Shown: piece by piece, positions 7,368 through 22,922 of the stretch
How positions within the stretch are numbered: position 1 is the stretch's first letter
How the letters are laid out: each line of letters starts with the position of its first letter
From: a virus
Reading direction: 5' to 3' (one strand)
DNA length: 22,922 nucleotides
IMG/VR virus record: IMGVR_UViG_3300015360_000210
Span: 1-22,922 of that record
The notes under the pieces: model-generated
What the model saw: only the letters and a program-made list of their open reading frames with translations
Database searches by the model: none
Told to the model about the DNA's origin: nothing
Translations under genes and position numbers: made by a program

Positions 7368-8213
7368 ATGCCCGCAACAGTAAGTACAGATTTTGTTTTT
7401 GAACCGAAAGTATGGAAAGAGCACGTTAGTGCATTTTTTCGTGATAAATTAGTTTTTGGTGCTATCGCTGAAAGTGATGACAGCTTAACACAAGAACCAG
7501 GGACTACAGTAAATTTTCCTTATTTTAAACAAATAGGAGCAGTAGAAGAACCTGCTGAATCCGCTTCTTTGAGTGTTGACAATTTGTCAGACGATTCTTT
7601 CAACGCAACAGTAAAAGAAATTGGTAAAGCGGTTGGTATTAAGAAGAAAGCTTTCAAAGTTAGTGCAGCAAGAACAGAACGCATTATCCAAGAAATCACT
7701 TCACAAATTGGTCGTCGTCATGCTGAAAAAGTTGATAGCGATTTACTAGCTGAATTTGCTGGCGTAGGAAACTTTGTAGCTCCGGTTATGTCGGTAACAG
7801 GTAAGAATGTACGCGCAATCAATCACGGTAAAGTAACAGCTTTCGGTGATTTACACCAAGATGCAGTTGCATTACAAATCCATAGCTTAGATATGCTTGA
7901 AGTAATGAACGATACAGTTGCAGGATTCATGAAAGCGGATGCACTTGATCCAATGATTCGTGTACCTGGTTTCGTAGGTCGTTTGTTAGGTATGGCTGTG
8001 TTTGAAAATGACAAACTAACAGTTGGTACTGCATACATTCAAAAAATGGCACCATACGGTTACATTTTGAAGCAAGACATGGAACTTGAAAGCGATTACG
8101 ACATTTTGGCGCGCGAATGGGTTTTTACAGGCAACCAATGGTATGCAGTAAAATCATTCCACGCAAAAATTGCTGCTAACGATTATAAAACAGCAAAATT
8201 AGTGTTCACATAA
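7368..8213 (+). CDS. Major capsid protein
   Basis: 281 residues, the shell subunit. It follows the scaffold gene with a good AGGAG site, and codon use is more even and TTA/GCA-rich than in its neighbours, as expected for a highly expressed gene. The order of elements fits the HK97 fold: N-terminal arm with VWKEHVSAFFRDKLVFGAIAE (16-36), an extended loop rich in Pro/Glu/Ser, a long spine-like helix with RTERIIQEITSQIGRRHAEKVDSDLL (106-131) and a C-terminal beta-rich domain that includes a Lys-Gln-Asp-Met-Glu-Leu-Glu segment. A hairpin terminator follows directly. The assignment rests on position and overall pattern, not on a diagnostic motif. Confidence 0.9.
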   Translation: MPATVSTDFVFEPKVWKEHVSAFFRDKLVFGAIAESDDSLTQEPGTTVNFPYFKQIGAVEEPAESASLSVDNLSDDSFNATVKEIGKAVGIKKKAFKVSAARTERIIQEITSQIGRRHAEKVDSDLLAEFAGVGNFVAPVMSVTGKNVRAINHGKVTAFGDLHQDAVALQIHSLDMLEVMNDTVAGFMKADALDPMIRVPGFVGRLLGMAVFENDKLTVGTAYIQKMAPYGYILKQDMELESDYDILAREWVFTGNQWYAVKSFHAKIAANDYKTAKLVFT

Positions 8214-8224
8214 TAGAGAATAAT

Positions 8225-8251
8225 AGCGAGCAAAGGTTTACTTTGCTCGCT
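8225..8251 (+). terminator. Hairpin terminator after the major capsid gene
   Basis: GCGAGCAAAG (8226-8235) pairs perfectly with CTTTGCTCGC (8241-8250) around a GTTTA loop; A8225-T8251 adds an eleventh pair. It is followed by TTAAACTTTT, a weak T-run. It starts 12 nt after the capsid stop. It probably causes partial termination and protects the 3' end of an abundant capsid transcript, while the genes beyond are read through or have their own promoter. Confidence 0.8.
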
Positions 8252-8289
8252 TAAACTTTTAAATTTAAATTATTACAAAGGAAATAAAA

Positions 8290-8736
8290 ATGAAAATTAT
8301 CTTAGCTTTAGTTTGTGTTCTTGGTCTCACTTCTCAGGCATTTGCCGCTTTAAACAATGAAAATAATCCTGGTATGGCATGTTATGCGCTTGGTTCTCCA
8401 AGTGTTGATGCAACTATTTTGGCAGGTGCTTTAGGTGGTAAATCCATTAGAGTAATGTCTGTTAGTCTTGTAAACGCAGGGACAATTGTAGCTTCTAACT
8501 CCGACTTTGTTCAGTTAGAGTTACGCAAAGGCGCAACAGTTGTTGCAGAGCTTGATTCTCGTGCTGCACATGAAAATGGACTTGTTCTAAATACGCAGGA
8601 GCCTTTGAATGTAGTTTTGGCGGAACGAGATATAGCTGCGAATTCAGTTTTATCTATTGACTACAATGAGACAGACTCGGGTACTGCGGTTGCACTAACC
8701 GGAGCTATGGTTTGTGTTCATTACGCGGTGAAATAA
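8290..8736 (+). CDS. Unknown protein with Sec signal peptide, encoded directly after the capsid gene
   Basis: 148 residues with AAAGGA before ATG 8290. Residues 1-19 (MKIILALVCVLGLTSQAFA) are a textbook signal peptide with a signal-peptidase I Ala-x-Ala site before Ala20. No lipobox is present. The mature part (about 129 residues) is beta-rich, with strands such as SIRVMSVSLVNAG and DFVQLELRKGATVVAEL, and has exactly two Cys (31 and 142), which could form a disulfide after export. The fold pattern resembles small head decoration or fibre proteins, and its place after the capsid gene would suggest such a role, but virion proteins are not normally exported. It may instead be a periplasmic or surface protein, for example for superinfection exclusion. 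Confidence 0.8.
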   Translation: MKIILALVCVLGLTSQAFAALNNENNPGMACYALGSPSVDATILAGALGGKSIRVMSVSLVNAGTIVASNSDFVQLELRKGATVVAELDSRAAHENGLVLNTQEPLNVVLAERDIAANSVLSIDYNETDSGTAVALTGAMVCVHYAVK

Positions 8737-8885
8737 TGGGAATTATGTCACGTCGTCGCCAAAGGGACCAAAAAGTAGTTGTAGCACAAGAAGCAATTAA
8801 TAAAAAAGAATTGGTAAAGCCAATCTTTGCGGAAAAAGAAATAGAGTCTGCGCAAGAAACGCCTTTAAAGAAAAAAGGGAAGTAG
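8736..8885 (+). CDS. 49-residue basic protein of unknown function
   Basis: ATG 8736 overlaps the previous stop (TAATG) and the ORF ends at TAG 8883-8885, three bases before the next ATG. The product starts MGIMSRRRQRDQKVVVAQEA, and continues with a Lys/Glu helix and the basic end KKKGK. No family recognised. Charge pattern and size fit a flexible peptide that binds another protein or DNA in the neck region. The seamless fit between two genes supports it. Confidence 0.6.
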   Translation: MGIMSRRRQRDQKVVVAQEAINKKELVKPIFAEKEIESAQETPLKKKGK

Positions 8886-9876: not shown

Positions 9877-10446
9877 ATGGAAAAGAATCGACAACAAGGA
9901 AAAGTCCGTTTTATTCGTAAGAATGGAAGGTTAATTCCAATTAGGGCGAAGTCATTAAACCCTGTTCTTTCTAAAAAAGCATATACGAAAGATCCTTACG
10001 GAGCTGCTGCAAAATCTAGTGCTTCGTTGGGTGCCCTAAGTGGCGTATCTGGTGCTGCCGCAGTTTTTGCTAAAGGTCCCAAGCTTAGAATGGCGGGCGC
10101 TCTAGGCGGGGTTGGTTTTGGAGCACTGGCTACGATAAATTCGGTAAATAGAATTAGAGGCAGCTATGCGCTGGGCGGTAAAAAAGAAGGCGGCGGCTTT
10201 ACTGGGTGGTTAGCTACGGGACTAACGGGATCTGCTGCTGGACTTGCTGCGTCTGTCGCAGGTGTTGGTGTTGGTGTTGGTGCGGGCTATCTTGCTTCTA
10301 AAGGGGCTGGAAAACTTGGAGGCCTGGCTAGGCTATTACGTCGAAAAAAGAAGTTACCTAAGGCATCTAAGGCATCTAAGGCATCTAAGGTTAAGGAAGC
10401 TACGGCTACGGCTACGGCTACGGCTACGAAATCTAGGTTTAAGTAA
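9877..10446 (+). CDS. Unknown Gly/Ala-rich hydrophobic protein with N-terminal hairpin motif
   Basis: 189 residues. Residues 9-23 (KVRFIRKNGRLIPIR) are nearly identical in pattern to the start of the protein encoded at 4789, 5 kb away. The rest has hydrophobic glycine-rich stretches at 49-65, 71-88 and 110-140 (GLTGSAAGLAASVAG, then GVGVGVGAGYLA), an Arg/Lys cluster (155-159), and a C-terminal low-complexity tail of Lys-Ala-Ser and Ala-Thr repeats made by two DNA tandem repeats. The same architecture as the 4789 product suggests paralogues. The Gly spacing is like helices that pack in or span membranes. I infer a minor virion component that could insert in the host envelope during DNA entry; direct evidence is lacking. 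Confidence 0.75.
   Translation: MEKNRQQGKVRFIRKNGRLIPIRAKSLNPVLSKKAYTKDPYGAAAKSSASLGALSGVSGAAAVFAKGPKLRMAGALGGVGFGALATINSVNRIRGSYALGGKKEGGGFTGWLATGLTGSAAGLAASVAGVGVGVGAGYLASKGAGKLGGLARLLRRKKKLPKASKASKASKVKEATATATATATKSRFK
10358..10390 (+). repeat. 9-bp tandem repeat, 3.7 copies
   Basis: Three perfect copies of CTAAGGCAT (10358-10366, 10367-10375, 10376-10384) and a partial CTAAGG. Coding in frame, it gives alternating Lys-Ala-Ser. The copies are identical, so the expansion is recent. Changing copy number would not shift the frame. Confidence 0.9.
10399..10428 (+). repeat. 6-bp tandem repeat, 5 copies
   Basis: Five perfect copies of GCTACG encode five Ala-Thr pairs near the C terminus of the same protein. 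It lies 8 nt after the 9-bp repeat. Both are multiples of three, so length can vary without loss of the protein. Confidence 0.9.
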
Positions 10447-10907
10447 TGCCTGGTAAAACTGTAAAACTTGAAAACTTTGCGCAAGAAATAGAAGGGTTTT
10501 CAAAGGCTACGCTGAAAGAGCAAAGGGTCGCAGTTGTTAGTGGGGTTATGCGTTCACTTCCTGAGTTAGTTGCGGCAAGTCCGGTGGATACCGGTTCTTA
10601 TGCAGCCTCTTGGGATTTCACGGAAACAGAGCAGAACGTGATTCTTGGCAATTTTGCTCCACACGCGCCAATTATAGAGAAGGGCGCTAGGCCTTTCACG
10701 CCGCCCATTCGTCCCTTGTTGGCGTGGGCTAAAAGAGTGTTAAGGTCTTCTAGTCAGCCTCCAGACTATGATAGCGAGGTTTGGGATTTGGCTAAGGGTG
10801 TGCAGAACAAGATCGCAAAAGAAGGTATGGAGCCTAGAAATATCTTAGAAAAAATGATTCCTAAAATCATTAAAAACATAAGGGAAGAATTAGCTCGTGG
10901 CAGATAG
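10446..10907 (+). CDS. Tail completion / neck protein, HK97 gp10-like
   Basis: 153 residues, TAATG start. The core pattern ASPVDTGSYAASWDF (44-58) followed by NFAPHAPIIEKGARPFTPP (69-87) matches the HK97 gp10-type family, which has Pro-Val-Asp-Thr-Gly-x-h-x-x-Ser/Trp and then Tyr/His-Ala-x-x-hydrophobic-Glu-x-Gly. Members sit at the head-tail junction and are needed to finish tails or join them to heads. A C-terminal helical region with EGMEPRNIL follows. It overlaps the next gene by 11 nt. Confidence 0.75.
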   Translation: MPGKTVKLENFAQEIEGFSKATLKEQRVAVVSGVMRSLPELVAASPVDTGSYAASWDFTETEQNVILGNFAPHAPIIEKGARPFTPPIRPLLAWAKRVLRSSSQPPDYDSEVWDLAKGVQNKIAKEGMEPRNILEKMIPKIIKNIREELARGR

Positions 10908-11511
10908 CACTACTTCAAACGAATCGATAACTGAAATTGTACCGAAGGCATTAAGCACATATTTAAAGGCTAATGTTTTGGGTCTTATAGAAGCTTACGA
11001 CGAATTTCCTTCCTCTAATTTAAAAATAAAAATGCCATCTATTTCTATATTCGCATCTTCAAATGCGGAATTTAGGTCTTTAATGCCTTATGTAGAAAAA
11101 AAAGCAGGCAGTGCGGGTGGTCCTGTAATCGCTGCAAATAAAGCTAAGATCAGATGGATTGTAGGAATTTACGACCTAACATTGCAATTGGATATTTGGA
11201 CTAGAAATAAAGAAGAAAGGGACGATATTTTTGACTCCTTATTCAATGCGTTAAATCCTAAGATAGCTCCTATGGGGCTTGTCCTAAAGCTAGATGAGTA
11301 TTTTAATCAGTTGTGCAGCTACGAATATATAGGCCACACTATGCAAGACTCAGGAGAACGTGCCGATAGAGACGAGTGGCGCATGACTGTGAATGTACTT
11401 GTGACTTGCAAAGCAGTGCGGGAGCGTTCAGAATTTATAATAACAGACACAGACACAGCAGCGGAAATTGAAGCTCAAGGGCAAATTGACCGGACTGTAG
11501 TTGTGGAATAA
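10897..11511 (+). CDS. Probable tail terminator protein
   Basis: 204 residues from GTG 10897, with AGGGAAG at 10881-10887 upstream. The N-terminal helix (ITEIVPKALSTYLKANVLG) and the beta strands KIRWIVGIYDLTLQLDIWTRNKEERDDIFD (84-113) are typical of tail-terminator and gpU-like proteins: a strand pair ending in Leu-x-Leu-x-x-Trp, then a charged helix carrying Arg-Asp. The later ADRDEWRMTVNVLVTCKA is the expected second sheet. These proteins cap the finished tail tube. Its place just before the sheath gene agrees. No unique motif proves it. Confidence 0.55.
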   Translation: MADSTTSNESITEIVPKALSTYLKANVLGLIEAYDEFPSSNLKIKMPSISIFASSNAEFRSLMPYVEKKAGSAGGPVIAANKAKIRWIVGIYDLTLQLDIWTRNKEERDDIFDSLFNALNPKIAPMGLVLKLDEYFNQLCSYEYIGHTMQDSGERADRDEWRMTVNVLVTCKAVRERSEFIITDTDTAAEIEAQGQIDRTVVVE

Positions 11512-17168: not shown

Positions 17169-17356
17169 TGGTAAATACAAAATGCGTCATAGATAAAATC
17201 CATGTGATGCCGACAGCAGACTGTATTGAGCACATAGAAAGTTCTGACTGCATATGTTCTCCGGTGCAGGATTCTGAGAACAAATGGGATTTACGCGAAG
17301 GAACTGCGGATAAAGAAGTTTGGGTACATAATTTAGTTTTAGTAGGTAAACATTAA
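17168..17356 (+). CDS. 62-residue Cys/His-rich small protein inside the baseplate operon
   Basis: TAATG at both ends. The product has Cys at 6, 19, 28 and 30, His at 12, 22, 54 and 62, and the pattern His-x-Met-Pro-x-x-Asp, Glu-His-x-x-Ser-x-x-Cys-x-Cys-x-Pro, and near the end Val-Trp-Val-His-Asn. I recognise this short layout from small proteins scattered in phages and bacteria: a His-rich start, a Cys-x-Cys-x-Pro centre and a Val-x-His-Asn end. They have no known function. It could bind a metal. It is not a usual baseplate part; co-transcription may be all that ties it to its neighbours. Confidence 0.7.
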   Translation: MVNTKCVIDKIHVMPTADCIEHIESSDCICSPVQDSENKWDLREGTADKEVWVHNLVLVGKH

Positions 17357-18912
17357 TGAGTTTCTATTATCCACAGGGAATAATACAGTTAAACGCGGTA
17401 CTCGAAGACTTTGGATATAATTCAAATCCACGTCTACAAGAGCCTTACGTATGGAATGTAGTTGCTCGACGCTTAACAGTTAATTTAAACAATTACAAAG
17501 AAGCAGATACTTTCTCCGCTGAAATCGACTACAAAAATTTTCCGCTTGATCCGAGAATTATTAGATCCCTGGGGGTCTCTGTTTTCTTGGAAAACAAAAG
17601 GCAAATATTTGATGCGGGAAGAACAAACGCATTAGATTTAATAAAACCTGGTTACGATAATATTATTTTTCAAGGTTTTGCAGATACGGATAAACTTGTT
17701 TTAAATCAAAATAATAGAACAGTATCATTAGATGGTAGAGATTTTACTTCACTTCTAATTGACCGAGAATATTTAGGCGATCCAATTGTAACATCTAAGA
17801 CTTTAGACAAAGTAATTCAAGACCTACTAAATCAATTGAATGAGACAAGAATTGATCCAAGTAAACCAGGGTTAGGTTTACTTATTGATAATCAAACAGG
17901 CGAAGAGCTTCCCATTTTATCTGATGTGGAGGGTTCTAAAGACGCGCTTGCAGGACTTTATAATAGTAAAGGAAAAAAAACTTATTGGGATATTATCCAA
18001 GAGCTTATTTCTAATACAGGCCTAATTGCGTACGTTGCGCTTAACAGGCTTGTCATTACAAAACCTCGAAATTTGTACGATAGAAGTAAATCAAAAGTCT
18101 TTGTTTTTGGCCGAAATGTGAAAGACTTAGAGTATGAAAGAAAACTCGGCAGGCAAAAAGGTTTTAATGTCAGATGTATTGCGCTCGACTTCGAAGAGAA
18201 GGAGCTTATTACCGCCAATATTCCAGAAGAGGCCACCGAATCCTGGGCTAAAGATATTGGTGTCAAGAGAGAGCCTATTCGTTTACCTGTTGCGAAAGCT
18301 CCACAAGCTGTTCCTGAGAATTCTGCGAATAACGCCAACACTTCAGGAGCCACAAATCCGCAACCACAAGGTGCCCAAGGTACTACCGAAAAAGATACTG
18401 CGCCATATCTCACGTTCAGAATCGCAAAAGTAAAAGACAAAGCTGCGCTTATAACTATAGGTGAGAAAATATTTGAAGAAGTAGGCAGACAACAAATTGA
18501 AGGTAAGTTAACGACTCGTGAGATGAAAATATTTTCGCCTGAAGTAAAGGGTGAAGATCAACTTTTCAGTGCTACAAAATTTAGAATAGGTACGCCAATA
18601 GAAATTAGAATTGACCAGGGTGATTTGGAAGGAATTCCATCTAACCTAAGGGCAGCGGCAAGAACTTCAAAAGATGTGGATACGCCACAACAAAAAACAG
18701 TTAGAAAAAATACGATAGCGGCAAGATTAAAACAACGCGGATATGAGCCACAAATAGCAGACGCTTTGGCGGAAGCTTTGACATTGTTTGACACGCCTTT
18801 TTATGTAAAAGACGTGGAATTTACGTTAGATCAAGATGATGGTTTTTCTATGACATTGGGCTTTATCAATTTTATTGAGATCCCTCAAAATTTAGTGGAG
18901 GGTAAAACCTAA
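17356..18912 (+). CDS. Baseplate hub protein (gpD / gp27-like)
   Basis: 518 residues, TAATG at both ends. The N-terminal domain has VVARRLTVNLNNYKEADTFSAEIDYKNFPLD (35-65) and a segment with NQNNRTVSLDGRDFTSLLID (117-136), the pattern of hub proteins in which a strand-rich tube-like domain is built around Gly-Arg-Asp and Leu-Leu. The C-terminal domain ends in EFTLDQDDGFSMTLGFINFIEIP. A low-complexity linker rich in Asn, Pro, Gln and Gly (about 316-350) divides the two halves. It forms the ring that joins tube to spike. The following spike gene supports the call. Confidence 0.85.
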   Translation: MSFYYPQGIIQLNAVLEDFGYNSNPRLQEPYVWNVVARRLTVNLNNYKEADTFSAEIDYKNFPLDPRIIRSLGVSVFLENKRQIFDAGRTNALDLIKPGYDNIIFQGFADTDKLVLNQNNRTVSLDGRDFTSLLIDREYLGDPIVTSKTLDKVIQDLLNQLNETRIDPSKPGLGLLIDNQTGEELPILSDVEGSKDALAGLYNSKGKKTYWDIIQELISNTGLIAYVALNRLVITKPRNLYDRSKSKVFVFGRNVKDLEYERKLGRQKGFNVRCIALDFEEKELITANIPEEATESWAKDIGVKREPIRLPVAKAPQAVPENSANNANTSGATNPQPQGAQGTTEKDTAPYLTFRIAKVKDKAALITIGEKIFEEVGRQQIEGKLTTREMKIFSPEVKGEDQLFSATKFRIGTPIEIRIDQGDLEGIPSNLRAAARTSKDVDTPQQKTVRKNTIAARLKQRGYEPQIADALAEALTLFDTPFYVKDVEFTLDQDDGFSMTLGFINFIEIPQNLVEGKT

Positions 18913-21944: not shown

Positions 21945-22922
21945 ATGCGTAGAAAATTTAATGATGGGCAAGAGGTTATTTTTCAAGACTTCAATAAGAT
22001 GGGCGCGGCGGTAGAGGGCGAGCTTTACGATAGAGTAATTTTTGAACTAATTCAGAGAGCAGAAAACTCTTTTTTTGCAGACGGGTTTAACGTAATTTAC
22101 TCAGCACCTACTACTGTTTCGGTAAATGCTGGGGTTGGTTTTCAAACGGATGCAACGCAAGTGGCACCGGAACCAAAAAAGAGACTTTTATATAGAGCAG
22201 CAGCGCTGCCTATAAATCTAGTAGCTCCGCACGCAACACTTAATAGAATTGATCTAATTGTGTGTAAAGCTGCACGAGTTGACGGAGCGCCGGAAACTCG
22301 CAAGTACAAAGCGCCTATCGGCACAATTTCCAATGAGAGTTTAGTAGTTTCCGAGGATTGGGAATCAGAAATAATTGCAGTAGAGGGAACACCTCACGCG
22401 ACTCCGGTAGCTCCAACGGTACCTACAGGTTATATAAAACTTTCTGAATGTTTAGTTACAGCAGTCTCAGGAATGAGTGGATCCGGTGCCATTACAGACT
22501 TCAGAATCTTACTTCCTGTCGGTGGTTCGGCTACAATTAACACTTTAACAGCAGTTAAAATAACGGCTAGTGCCGCTCTTTCCATTCAGCAAGCAATTCT
22601 ACAATTAGATGAGTTAGCTAGGTACGGAAAAATTGACTACAATGATTTTGAGGATCTTGTATCAGATCCAGCAGCACCCGCAGCGGGGATTGTTCGAGTT
22701 TATAATAAAGCCGGAATTTTATTCGGTCGAGACAACACTACGCTAGCGCCCATCGGAAGCGGTGCGCTTGATACCACTACCAATTTCACTATAGCAAACA
22801 ACGCAACAAGCGCAGCTATCACGGGGCTTCTATTTGACTTAGCTACTTTTAGAGCAGTAGAAATTGAATATTCAATTTATAGAAAAACAGATTCTCCGAT
22901 AGAAGTTGCAGCGATGGGCAAG
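21945..22922 (+). CDS. Partial tail-fibre-like baseplate protein, truncated by the right edge
   Basis: Starts at ATG 21945, two bases after the previous stop, and stays open for 326 codons to the window end. The N-terminal 30 residues have EVIFQDFNKMGAAVEGELYDRVIFELIQRAENSFFADGF, typical of the attachment part of phage tail fibre or fibre-adaptor proteins (Gln-Asp-Phe-Asn and following helix). Then comes a beta-rich domain with PKKRLLYRAAALPINLVAPHATLNRIDLIVCKAARVDG, where Arg-Ile-Asp-Leu/Ile-Val is the common strand of these proteins, and TGYIKLSECLVTAVSG. The C-terminal receptor-binding part lies outside the window. Host range is therefore not visible. Confidence 0.8.
   Translation, partial: MRRKFNDGQEVIFQDFNKMGAAVEGELYDRVIFELIQRAENSFFADGFNVIYSAPTTVSVNAGVGFQTDATQVAPEPKKRLLYRAAALPINLVAPHATLNRIDLIVCKAARVDGAPETRKYKAPIGTISNESLVVSEDWESEIIAVEGTPHATPVAPTVPTGYIKLSECLVTAVSGMSGSGAITDFRILLPVGGSATINTLTAVKITASAALSIQQAILQLDELARYGKIDYNDFEDLVSDPAAPAAGIVRVYNKAGILFGRDNTTLAPIGSGALDTTTNFTIANNATSAAITGLLFDLATFRAVEIEYSIYRKTDSPIEVAAMGK

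Follow-up and report, generated by a model that had tools for sequence, protein, structure and literature searches.

The locus behind the capsid gene

The stretch of DNA analysed here, the window, is a virus record of 22,922 bases with phage packaging, head and contractile-tail genes, among which the terminase, SPP1-type portal, capsid and sheath genes were all recognised. Since an open reading frame (ORF) reaches past its end, the window is a fragment. The features discussed below are the following.

7368..8213, plus strand: major capsid protein gene (PHROG_544 major head protein, E 5e-35; Pfam Phage_capsid_4 above cut-off)
8225..8251, plus strand: stem-loop in the spacer between the capsid gene and the leadered gene (fold of the spacer)
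8277..8282, plus strand: Shine-Dalgarno-like AAAGGA, 7 nt 5' of the leader ATG
8290..8736, plus strand: leadered jelly-roll protein of 148 aa, putative exported capsid decoration protein (family profile E 4e-44; predicted fold)
8290..8346, plus strand: Sec/SPI-type leader, codons 1-19, MKIILALVCVLGLTSQAFA (from sequence, crude rule and relatives)
8347..8733, plus strand: mature jelly-roll domain with the N-terminus ALNNENNP as in leaderless relatives (alignments; model pLDDT 92.6)
8380..8382, plus strand: codon of Cys31 (mature residue 12) in the first strand (alignment, model)
8713..8715, plus strand: codon of Cys142 (mature residue 123) in the last strand (alignment, model)
8736..8885, plus strand: small basic gene, 49 aa, overlapping the stop codon of the leadered gene
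21945..22922, plus strand: fibre/baseplate-like gene truncated by the window end; the fibre-position gene is next in relatives

The identification of 7368-8213 as the capsid gene is firm. A 76-nt spacer separates its stop codon from the ATG of the leadered ORF, and the gene has the same place in relatives, in agreement with the decoration-type location pointed out in a preliminary description of this DNA. The stem-loop of the spacer is strong and recurs with differing sequence at the equal place in all five spacers folded (window, L002, L003, L018 and L023), and is perhaps a processing or attenuation element tuning the capsid-to-decoration ratio. Small K/R-rich ORFs, comparable to the gene at 8736-8885, were found near the corresponding place in L022, L016 and L025.

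Among the matches listed, identity reaches no more than 32.6% for capsid relatives in named phages and is about 30% for terminase relatives. No match to the tail-module gene at 17356-18912 was found in the phages collection. The ORFs 10446-10907 and 10897-11511 gave weak neck/tail-completion matches (PHROG_5, E 2e-6; tail terminator PHROG_176, E 0.18), which suggests that the head-tail connector genes of this phage group may be divergent.

A Sec-type leader precedes the mature domain

The translation of 8290-8736 consists of MKIILALVCVLGLTSQAFA, the predicted cut, and a mature part that starts with ALNNENNPGMAC and ends in MVCVHYAVK. The leader has Lys at position 2, an uncharged hydrophobic core (9-residue hydrophobicity mean 3.7) and AFA preceding the predicted cut. 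Inspection of its sequence revealed neither a lipobox nor a twin arginine, which excludes a lipoprotein or Tat leader. Superinfection-exclusion lipoproteins of the T5 Llp type carry a lipobox with Cys at +1; here the residue following AFA is Ala, so that a lipobox of this type is missing.

The leader was evaluated with a crude Sec/signal peptidase I (SPI) rule, which demands a positive n-region, an uncharged h-region and small residues at -3/-1, and which is home-made and no equivalent of SignalP. Of the window's 35 plus-strand ORFs that reach 50 aa, only that of the leadered protein passed, and among the 51 family proteins described below exactly the three leadered ones passed; when the N-terminal residues were shuffled, the pass rate was 217 in 10,000. 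Judged by this crude rule, the window protein appears to have the n/h/c layout with small -3/-1 residues, and the conserved junction predicts SPI cleavage after AFA. The Sec signal peptide with an Ala-x-Ala end, proposed in the preliminary description, is thus supported by a rule that is passed selectively and by a leader that is conserved in a clade and looks cleavable.

The possibility that the leader is a start-codon artefact was ruled out, since each of the three leadered genes has a Shine-Dalgarno-like sequence just 5' of its leader ATG (for L007 the listed ORF starts 15 codons too early, across a stem-loop). In the window there is no in-frame start codon between M1 and the predicted mature N-terminus; the next in-frame ATG is codon 29, and the 14 nt before it contain no Shine-Dalgarno sequence. 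A PHROG_1277 'DNA methyltransferase' match (E 0.0013, and 0.049 with the leader removed) was not believed, and tblastn matches of the leadered protein to PM2 and Gordonia (E 2 to 7) were attributed to chance.

The leader is confined to three members of the family

Relatives were collected by viral-contig scans with the protein, its alignment and the capsid, and by one bacterial-genome scan. This yielded 103 loci besides the window, many of them overlapping pieces of one record. The window and 104 loci together have 1,548 plus-strand ORFs; a profile search of these returned 83 family matches, which were reduced to 51 distinct proteins by collapsing identical ones and removing L006 and L048 (shorter than 100 aa, at contig ends); the window is represented by its own copy, L001. 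Throughout the family-bearing capsid loci, which belong to uncultured contractile-tailed phages, the family protein is encoded directly behind the capsid gene.

Forty-eight of the 51 proteins are leaderless and begin with short starts such as MALNNENNP, MSLSNENNP or MSAQSNERNP. The leader was found in the remaining three, those of the window, L002 and L007 (the L007 protein occurs in two records). Leader and junction read MKMILMFLSLVFCMMTLPAQA|ALNNANNP in L002 and MKYLLSLMVMFTMCVANA|ALNNENNP in L007, so that cleavage as predicted would leave the leadered proteins with the N-terminus that is native to their leaderless relatives. Members of the leaderless family (L003, L010, L012, L028 and others) share gene place and profile with the window protein and are 19-54% identical to it; their N-terminus equals its predicted mature N-terminus, whereas the leader distinguishes it from them, as does a Cys pair that is present in one of the 48. 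Three additional single-protein scans produced no further leadered members.

The preliminary description had considered leaderless homologues to speak against its interpretation. Such homologues are the rule, and they show that the family is not, in general, one of envelope proteins; what persists is a leader that was added late, in one clade, and was kept over strong divergence.

In 15 distinct records, mostly fragments, the family gene is absent behind a complete capsid gene, and a profile search of these records found no copy elsewhere in them. The gene seems to be dispensable in this phage group. Decoration genes often are dispensable.

Several observations were made in passing. L012:3220-4405 and L042:3909-5101 are tandem paralogues of the decoration gene. 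One tandem copy has a domain insertion of about 100 residues that by eye resembles an insertion in the sheath protein of L003:3697-4839, as if one insert domain had moved between virion genes of the phage group. L028 (JANQEN010000293.1), a leaderless group member, is a 45-kb contig in a Chitinivibrionales MAG. Within the phylum of G001 (Fibrobacterota by tree label), the capsid profile matched one genome out of 167, the source of L028; as the capsid is missing from the other 166, the contig may belong to a free phage that was grouped with the MAG in binning.

The leader was probably gained once and has been kept by selection

A maximum-likelihood tree was built from 49 mature parts, leaving out L012_3220 and L042_4352 with their domain insertions; alignment A4 additionally excludes L053 and L062. 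The leadered proteins of the window, L002 and L007 form one clade (support 100/92), and the leaderless L003 is its sister (100/96). A single gain of the leader would be the simplest account of this tree; the leader represents one evolutionary event with three distinct surviving copies. The leaderless relatives and the single leadered clade together indicate a discrete addition, placed exactly before the ancestral N-terminus.

The three leaders are mutually 29-44% identical in amino acids and 44-48% in nucleotides, and the mature parts are 59-71% identical. Despite this divergence all three leaders retain K2, the hydrophobic core and small -3/-1 residues, the triplets at the predicted junctions being AFA, AQA or ANA. 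In each of the three pairs, conservation within the leader is higher at second than at first codon positions. In a neutral simulation the rule was still passed by 7% of leaders after 20 substitution events and by 3% after 30. Few neutral leaders would stay signal-like over such divergence, which argues that the leader has been kept by selection as a leader.

These findings bear on the possibility that the leader has no targeting role and merely adds a hydrophobic N-terminal arm to an ordinary, cytoplasmic decoration protein. Forty-eight of the 51 relatives manage without a leader, and the crude rule lets through about 2% of shuffled N-termini; against this, the tripartite layout and the junction are retained in three diverged leaders, one of 35 ORFs of the window passes, and the leader coincides with the Cys pair. 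We regard this explanation as improbable.

For capsid identities of 0.75-0.9, mean mature-part identity was 0.63 in the three leadered pairs vs 0.49 in 69 leaderless pairs; thus the mature part of the leadered proteins has not evolved faster than in leaderless relatives. The conserved core VVAELDSRAAHENG is intact in the window, and L002 and L007 each depart from it at one residue. Had the protein turned to an unrelated task in the envelope, a loosened or altered conservation of the mature part would be more likely. The conserved core and the missing acceleration favour a decoration protein that makes a detour via the periplasm over a new periplasmic function.

The predicted fold resembles that of phage cement proteins

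An AlphaFold2 model based on 47 family sequences showed the mature part as eight strands with a pLDDT of 92.6 and a pTM of 0.85 (an earlier model from 13 sequences had reached 79.7), in line with the beta-rich mature protein of the preliminary description. The structural matches are jelly-roll and TNF-like sandwiches. The following cement proteins were among them (with Z score, deviation and aligned residues in parentheses): KHP30 7dn2_1 (8.7, 3.4 A, 113), BPP-1 3j4u_H (8.0, 3.7 A, 110), Pam1 7eel_H (7.8, 3.4 A, 111) and KHP40 7dou_4 (7.8, 3.2 A, 106). The top match was a tail-fibre domain of Agrobacterium phage 7-7-1 (9rkv_M; 9.5, 2.3 A, 105), and plant-virus coats and furin-like proteases scored about equal to the cement proteins. 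The suggested comparison of the fold with decoration proteins therefore gave a divided answer, four cement proteins at Z 7.8-8.7 mixed with unrelated folds. A search of the PDB with the 47-sequence family profile found no related sequence.

As the Z scores are near the level of unrelated sandwiches, the fold alone proves no decoration role, which becomes the best guess once size, post-capsid place and dispensability are added to the fold. As in the cement proteins of KHP30/KHP40, BPP-1 and Pam1 (7dn2, 7dou, 3j4u, 7eel), a single-domain, eight-stranded beta sandwich of the jelly-roll type is found, with about 125-140 residues, and set beside these proteins the window gene is a head-module gene that adjoins the capsid gene. 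Unlike them, the window protein has a Sec leader and a Cys pair; sequence similarity is not detectable and capsid binding is putative.

A cysteine pair accompanies the leader

Of the three cysteines of the window protein, C9 is located in the leader. The other two belong, in the model, to the first strand, E9-16 (Cys31), and to the last, E120-128 (Cys142); in jelly rolls these two strands are often adjacent. A Cys31-Cys142 disulphide is probably formed in the mature protein, and the pair suits the oxidising compartment that the preliminary description had envisaged for its two mature-part cysteines.

Both columns are Cys in all three leadered proteins vs one of the 48 leaderless ones (L080); the Cys31 column alone is Cys in L028 and L085, and the Cys142 column alone in L003. 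Fisher's test of leader against Cys pair gave 1.9e-4 with rows that are not independent: the three leadered proteins have a common ancestor, therefore the association counts as one event, not three. According to the tree, the Cys in the Cys142 column predates the leader, being present in the sister L003, and that in the Cys31 column arises on the same stem as the leader. The pair without leader in L080 shows that it is not exclusive to leadered proteins.

Fibre-position genes often carry leader-like N-termini

The fibre-position gene is the gene that follows the homologue of window 21945-22922. In the phages of L002 and L007 its product has a leader-like N-terminus too (L111:9189-11156(-) and L112:3392-5347(-)); the leader in these two leadered phages has no positive n-region (MGNLIF...). 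A survey covered 43 records or genomes, in 24 of which the upstream gene was found and in 20 the next gene was readable; the other four were left unjudged because the record ends (L121, L129) or the upstream gene fills the locus (L130, L136). Fifteen of the 20 assessable records have a leader-like N-terminus on the fibre-position gene and five do not.

The rule used here was the crude Sec/SPI rule, slightly widened, and it was passed by 10 of 17 N-termini (L118, L119, L120, L123-L127, L133 and L134). L116 and L117 pass only when the demand for a positive n-region is dropped. L122, with Cys at -3, does not pass but was counted as leader-like by eye, as were L135 and L137. Among the negatives, L128, L131, L132 and L138 fail the rule, and L139 was judged negative from its sequence.

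Four of six fibre-position proteins matched the TNF-like lectin tip of Bd2734 (PDB 8okw_C; E 0.0045, 0.0045, 2.2e-7 and 3.5e-6). One of the six matched an S-layer associated endoglucanase chain (E 0.005), which was taken for a carbohydrate-binding module, and with one nothing meaningful was matched. In excerpts of PMC10769870 the MAT fibres of Bdellovibrio, to which Bd2734 belongs, are cell-encoded predator adhesins, with a conserved beta-rich domain next to the signal peptide. It is the fibre-position protein, not the decoration protein, that may resemble the MAT fibre Bd2734 (8okw), by a leader-like N-terminus and, in the four matching proteins, a related TNF-like lectin domain; the likeness covers one domain only and establishes no host.

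Judged from the N-termini, export of fibre-position lectins looks common in the phage group, and the leader-bearing fibre-position genes are possibly the larger finding. With leader-like N-termini at 15 of 20 fibre positions, it becomes easier to believe that virion accessories, putative ones in the case of the fibres, are exported, and a leadered decoration protein is in keeping with this trend.

The L002 record contains an endolysin gene (PHROG_894, E 6e-5) with a holin-like ORF nearby, and two more small ORFs, one with a leader-like stretch and the other with an N-terminal membrane stretch and a coiled coil. We infer that these genes form a lysis cassette for a two-membrane host.

Discussion

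We propose that 8290-8736 encodes a jelly-roll capsid decoration protein, which in one clade has been rerouted via Sec and the periplasm and is added to heads at lysis; we assign this reading a probability of about one half. The first step, the addition of a leader exactly before the ancestral N-terminus, is shown by comparison with the leaderless relatives. SecYEG would then export the chain and signal peptidase I would cut after AFA, AQA or ANA; as the conserved small -3/-1 residues suggest, this would restore the ancestral N-terminus ALNN-. In the oxidising periplasm a Cys31-Cys142 disulphide could staple the sandwich, and at lysis the periplasmic pool would meet finished heads and bind their outer surface. 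The gain would be a sturdier coat protein that stays away from the heads until their assembly is over. Binding to finished capsids in vitro is known for decoration proteins, T4 Hoc/Soc and phage L Dec among them, and phage cement proteins are bound to the capsid exterior, often as trimers. Attachment of the window protein to the virion is suggested by gene position and fold. Dilution at lysis would count against late head binding.

The preliminary description had offered an envelope-directed function as one of two options. Its export idea is retained in our reading, and its proposal of superinfection exclusion is not: for this or for a change of the host surface there is no positive evidence, and the core is conserved in a mature part that is not accelerated. 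In its general form, this explanation supposes a neofunctionalised protein of the periplasm or cell surface (superinfection exclusion, virion or receptor capture, host-surface change) that is no longer part of the virion. A leader under selection together with a Cys pair would suit it, as would a gene that is dispensable in relatives, and the exported fibre-like lectins of the phage group could cooperate with such a protein. Nevertheless, the mature part retains the family core without acceleration, the gene still lies in the head module directly 3' of the capsid gene, and a lipobox is absent, which together make the envelope function unlikely.

Membrane anchoring, also raised in the preliminary description, would mean that an uncleaved hydrophobic N-terminus tethers the protein to the inner membrane, or inserts in the virion, until assembly. 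The window leader is hydrophobic enough for a signal anchor (9-residue mean 3.7), but its h-region, like those of the other leaders, is short, and in all three leadered proteins small -3/-1 residues, which an anchor does not need, stand right before an ancestral N-terminus that has been kept; we consider anchoring an improbable alternative. Least probable of all is that the family comprises some other beta-sandwich protein (a fibre head domain or an assembly factor) that merely follows the capsid gene: the best structural match is indeed a phage tail-fibre domain and the solved cement proteins lack sequence similarity to the family, but the immediate post-capsid position in family-bearing capsid loci, the single-domain size and the jelly roll suit known cement proteins.

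A virion protein exported via Sec with a signal sequence is known from filamentous phages, M13 g3p being the example in excerpts of PMC8310372. As far as these excerpts go, g3p shares with the window protein, whose virion role is putative, the combination of virion protein and signal sequence; the difference is that g3p is a membrane protein and its phage is extruded, whereas the phages of the window group have contractile tails and, in one relative, an endolysin and a holin-like gene. A full-text search of open-licence papers returned, in the passages accessible through it, no report of a tailed phage whose decoration protein has a Sec leader, and excerpts of PMC3606486, PMC7344957, PMC7602432, PMC11447400, PMC12923769, PMC12210884 and PMC12660748 do not describe one. 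The decoration-protein review PMC7602432 contains no words beginning 'signal', 'periplasm' or 'disulfide'.

The periplasmic detour proposed for the decoration protein may be part of a wider habit. It is conceivable, though in our estimation doubtful, that this contractile-tailed phage group uses the host periplasm as a second assembly compartment, where a fibre-like lectin in most members and a decoration protein in one clade would be Sec-exported, matured and oxidised, to be mounted at lysis. Heads of tailed phages are taken to be completed in the cytoplasm. A Sec leader that is specific to one clade and under selection turns a decoration-type protein into a natural experiment: as leaderless, leadered and gene-less relatives coexist, it can be asked whether a virion part matures outside the cytoplasm and is added at lysis.
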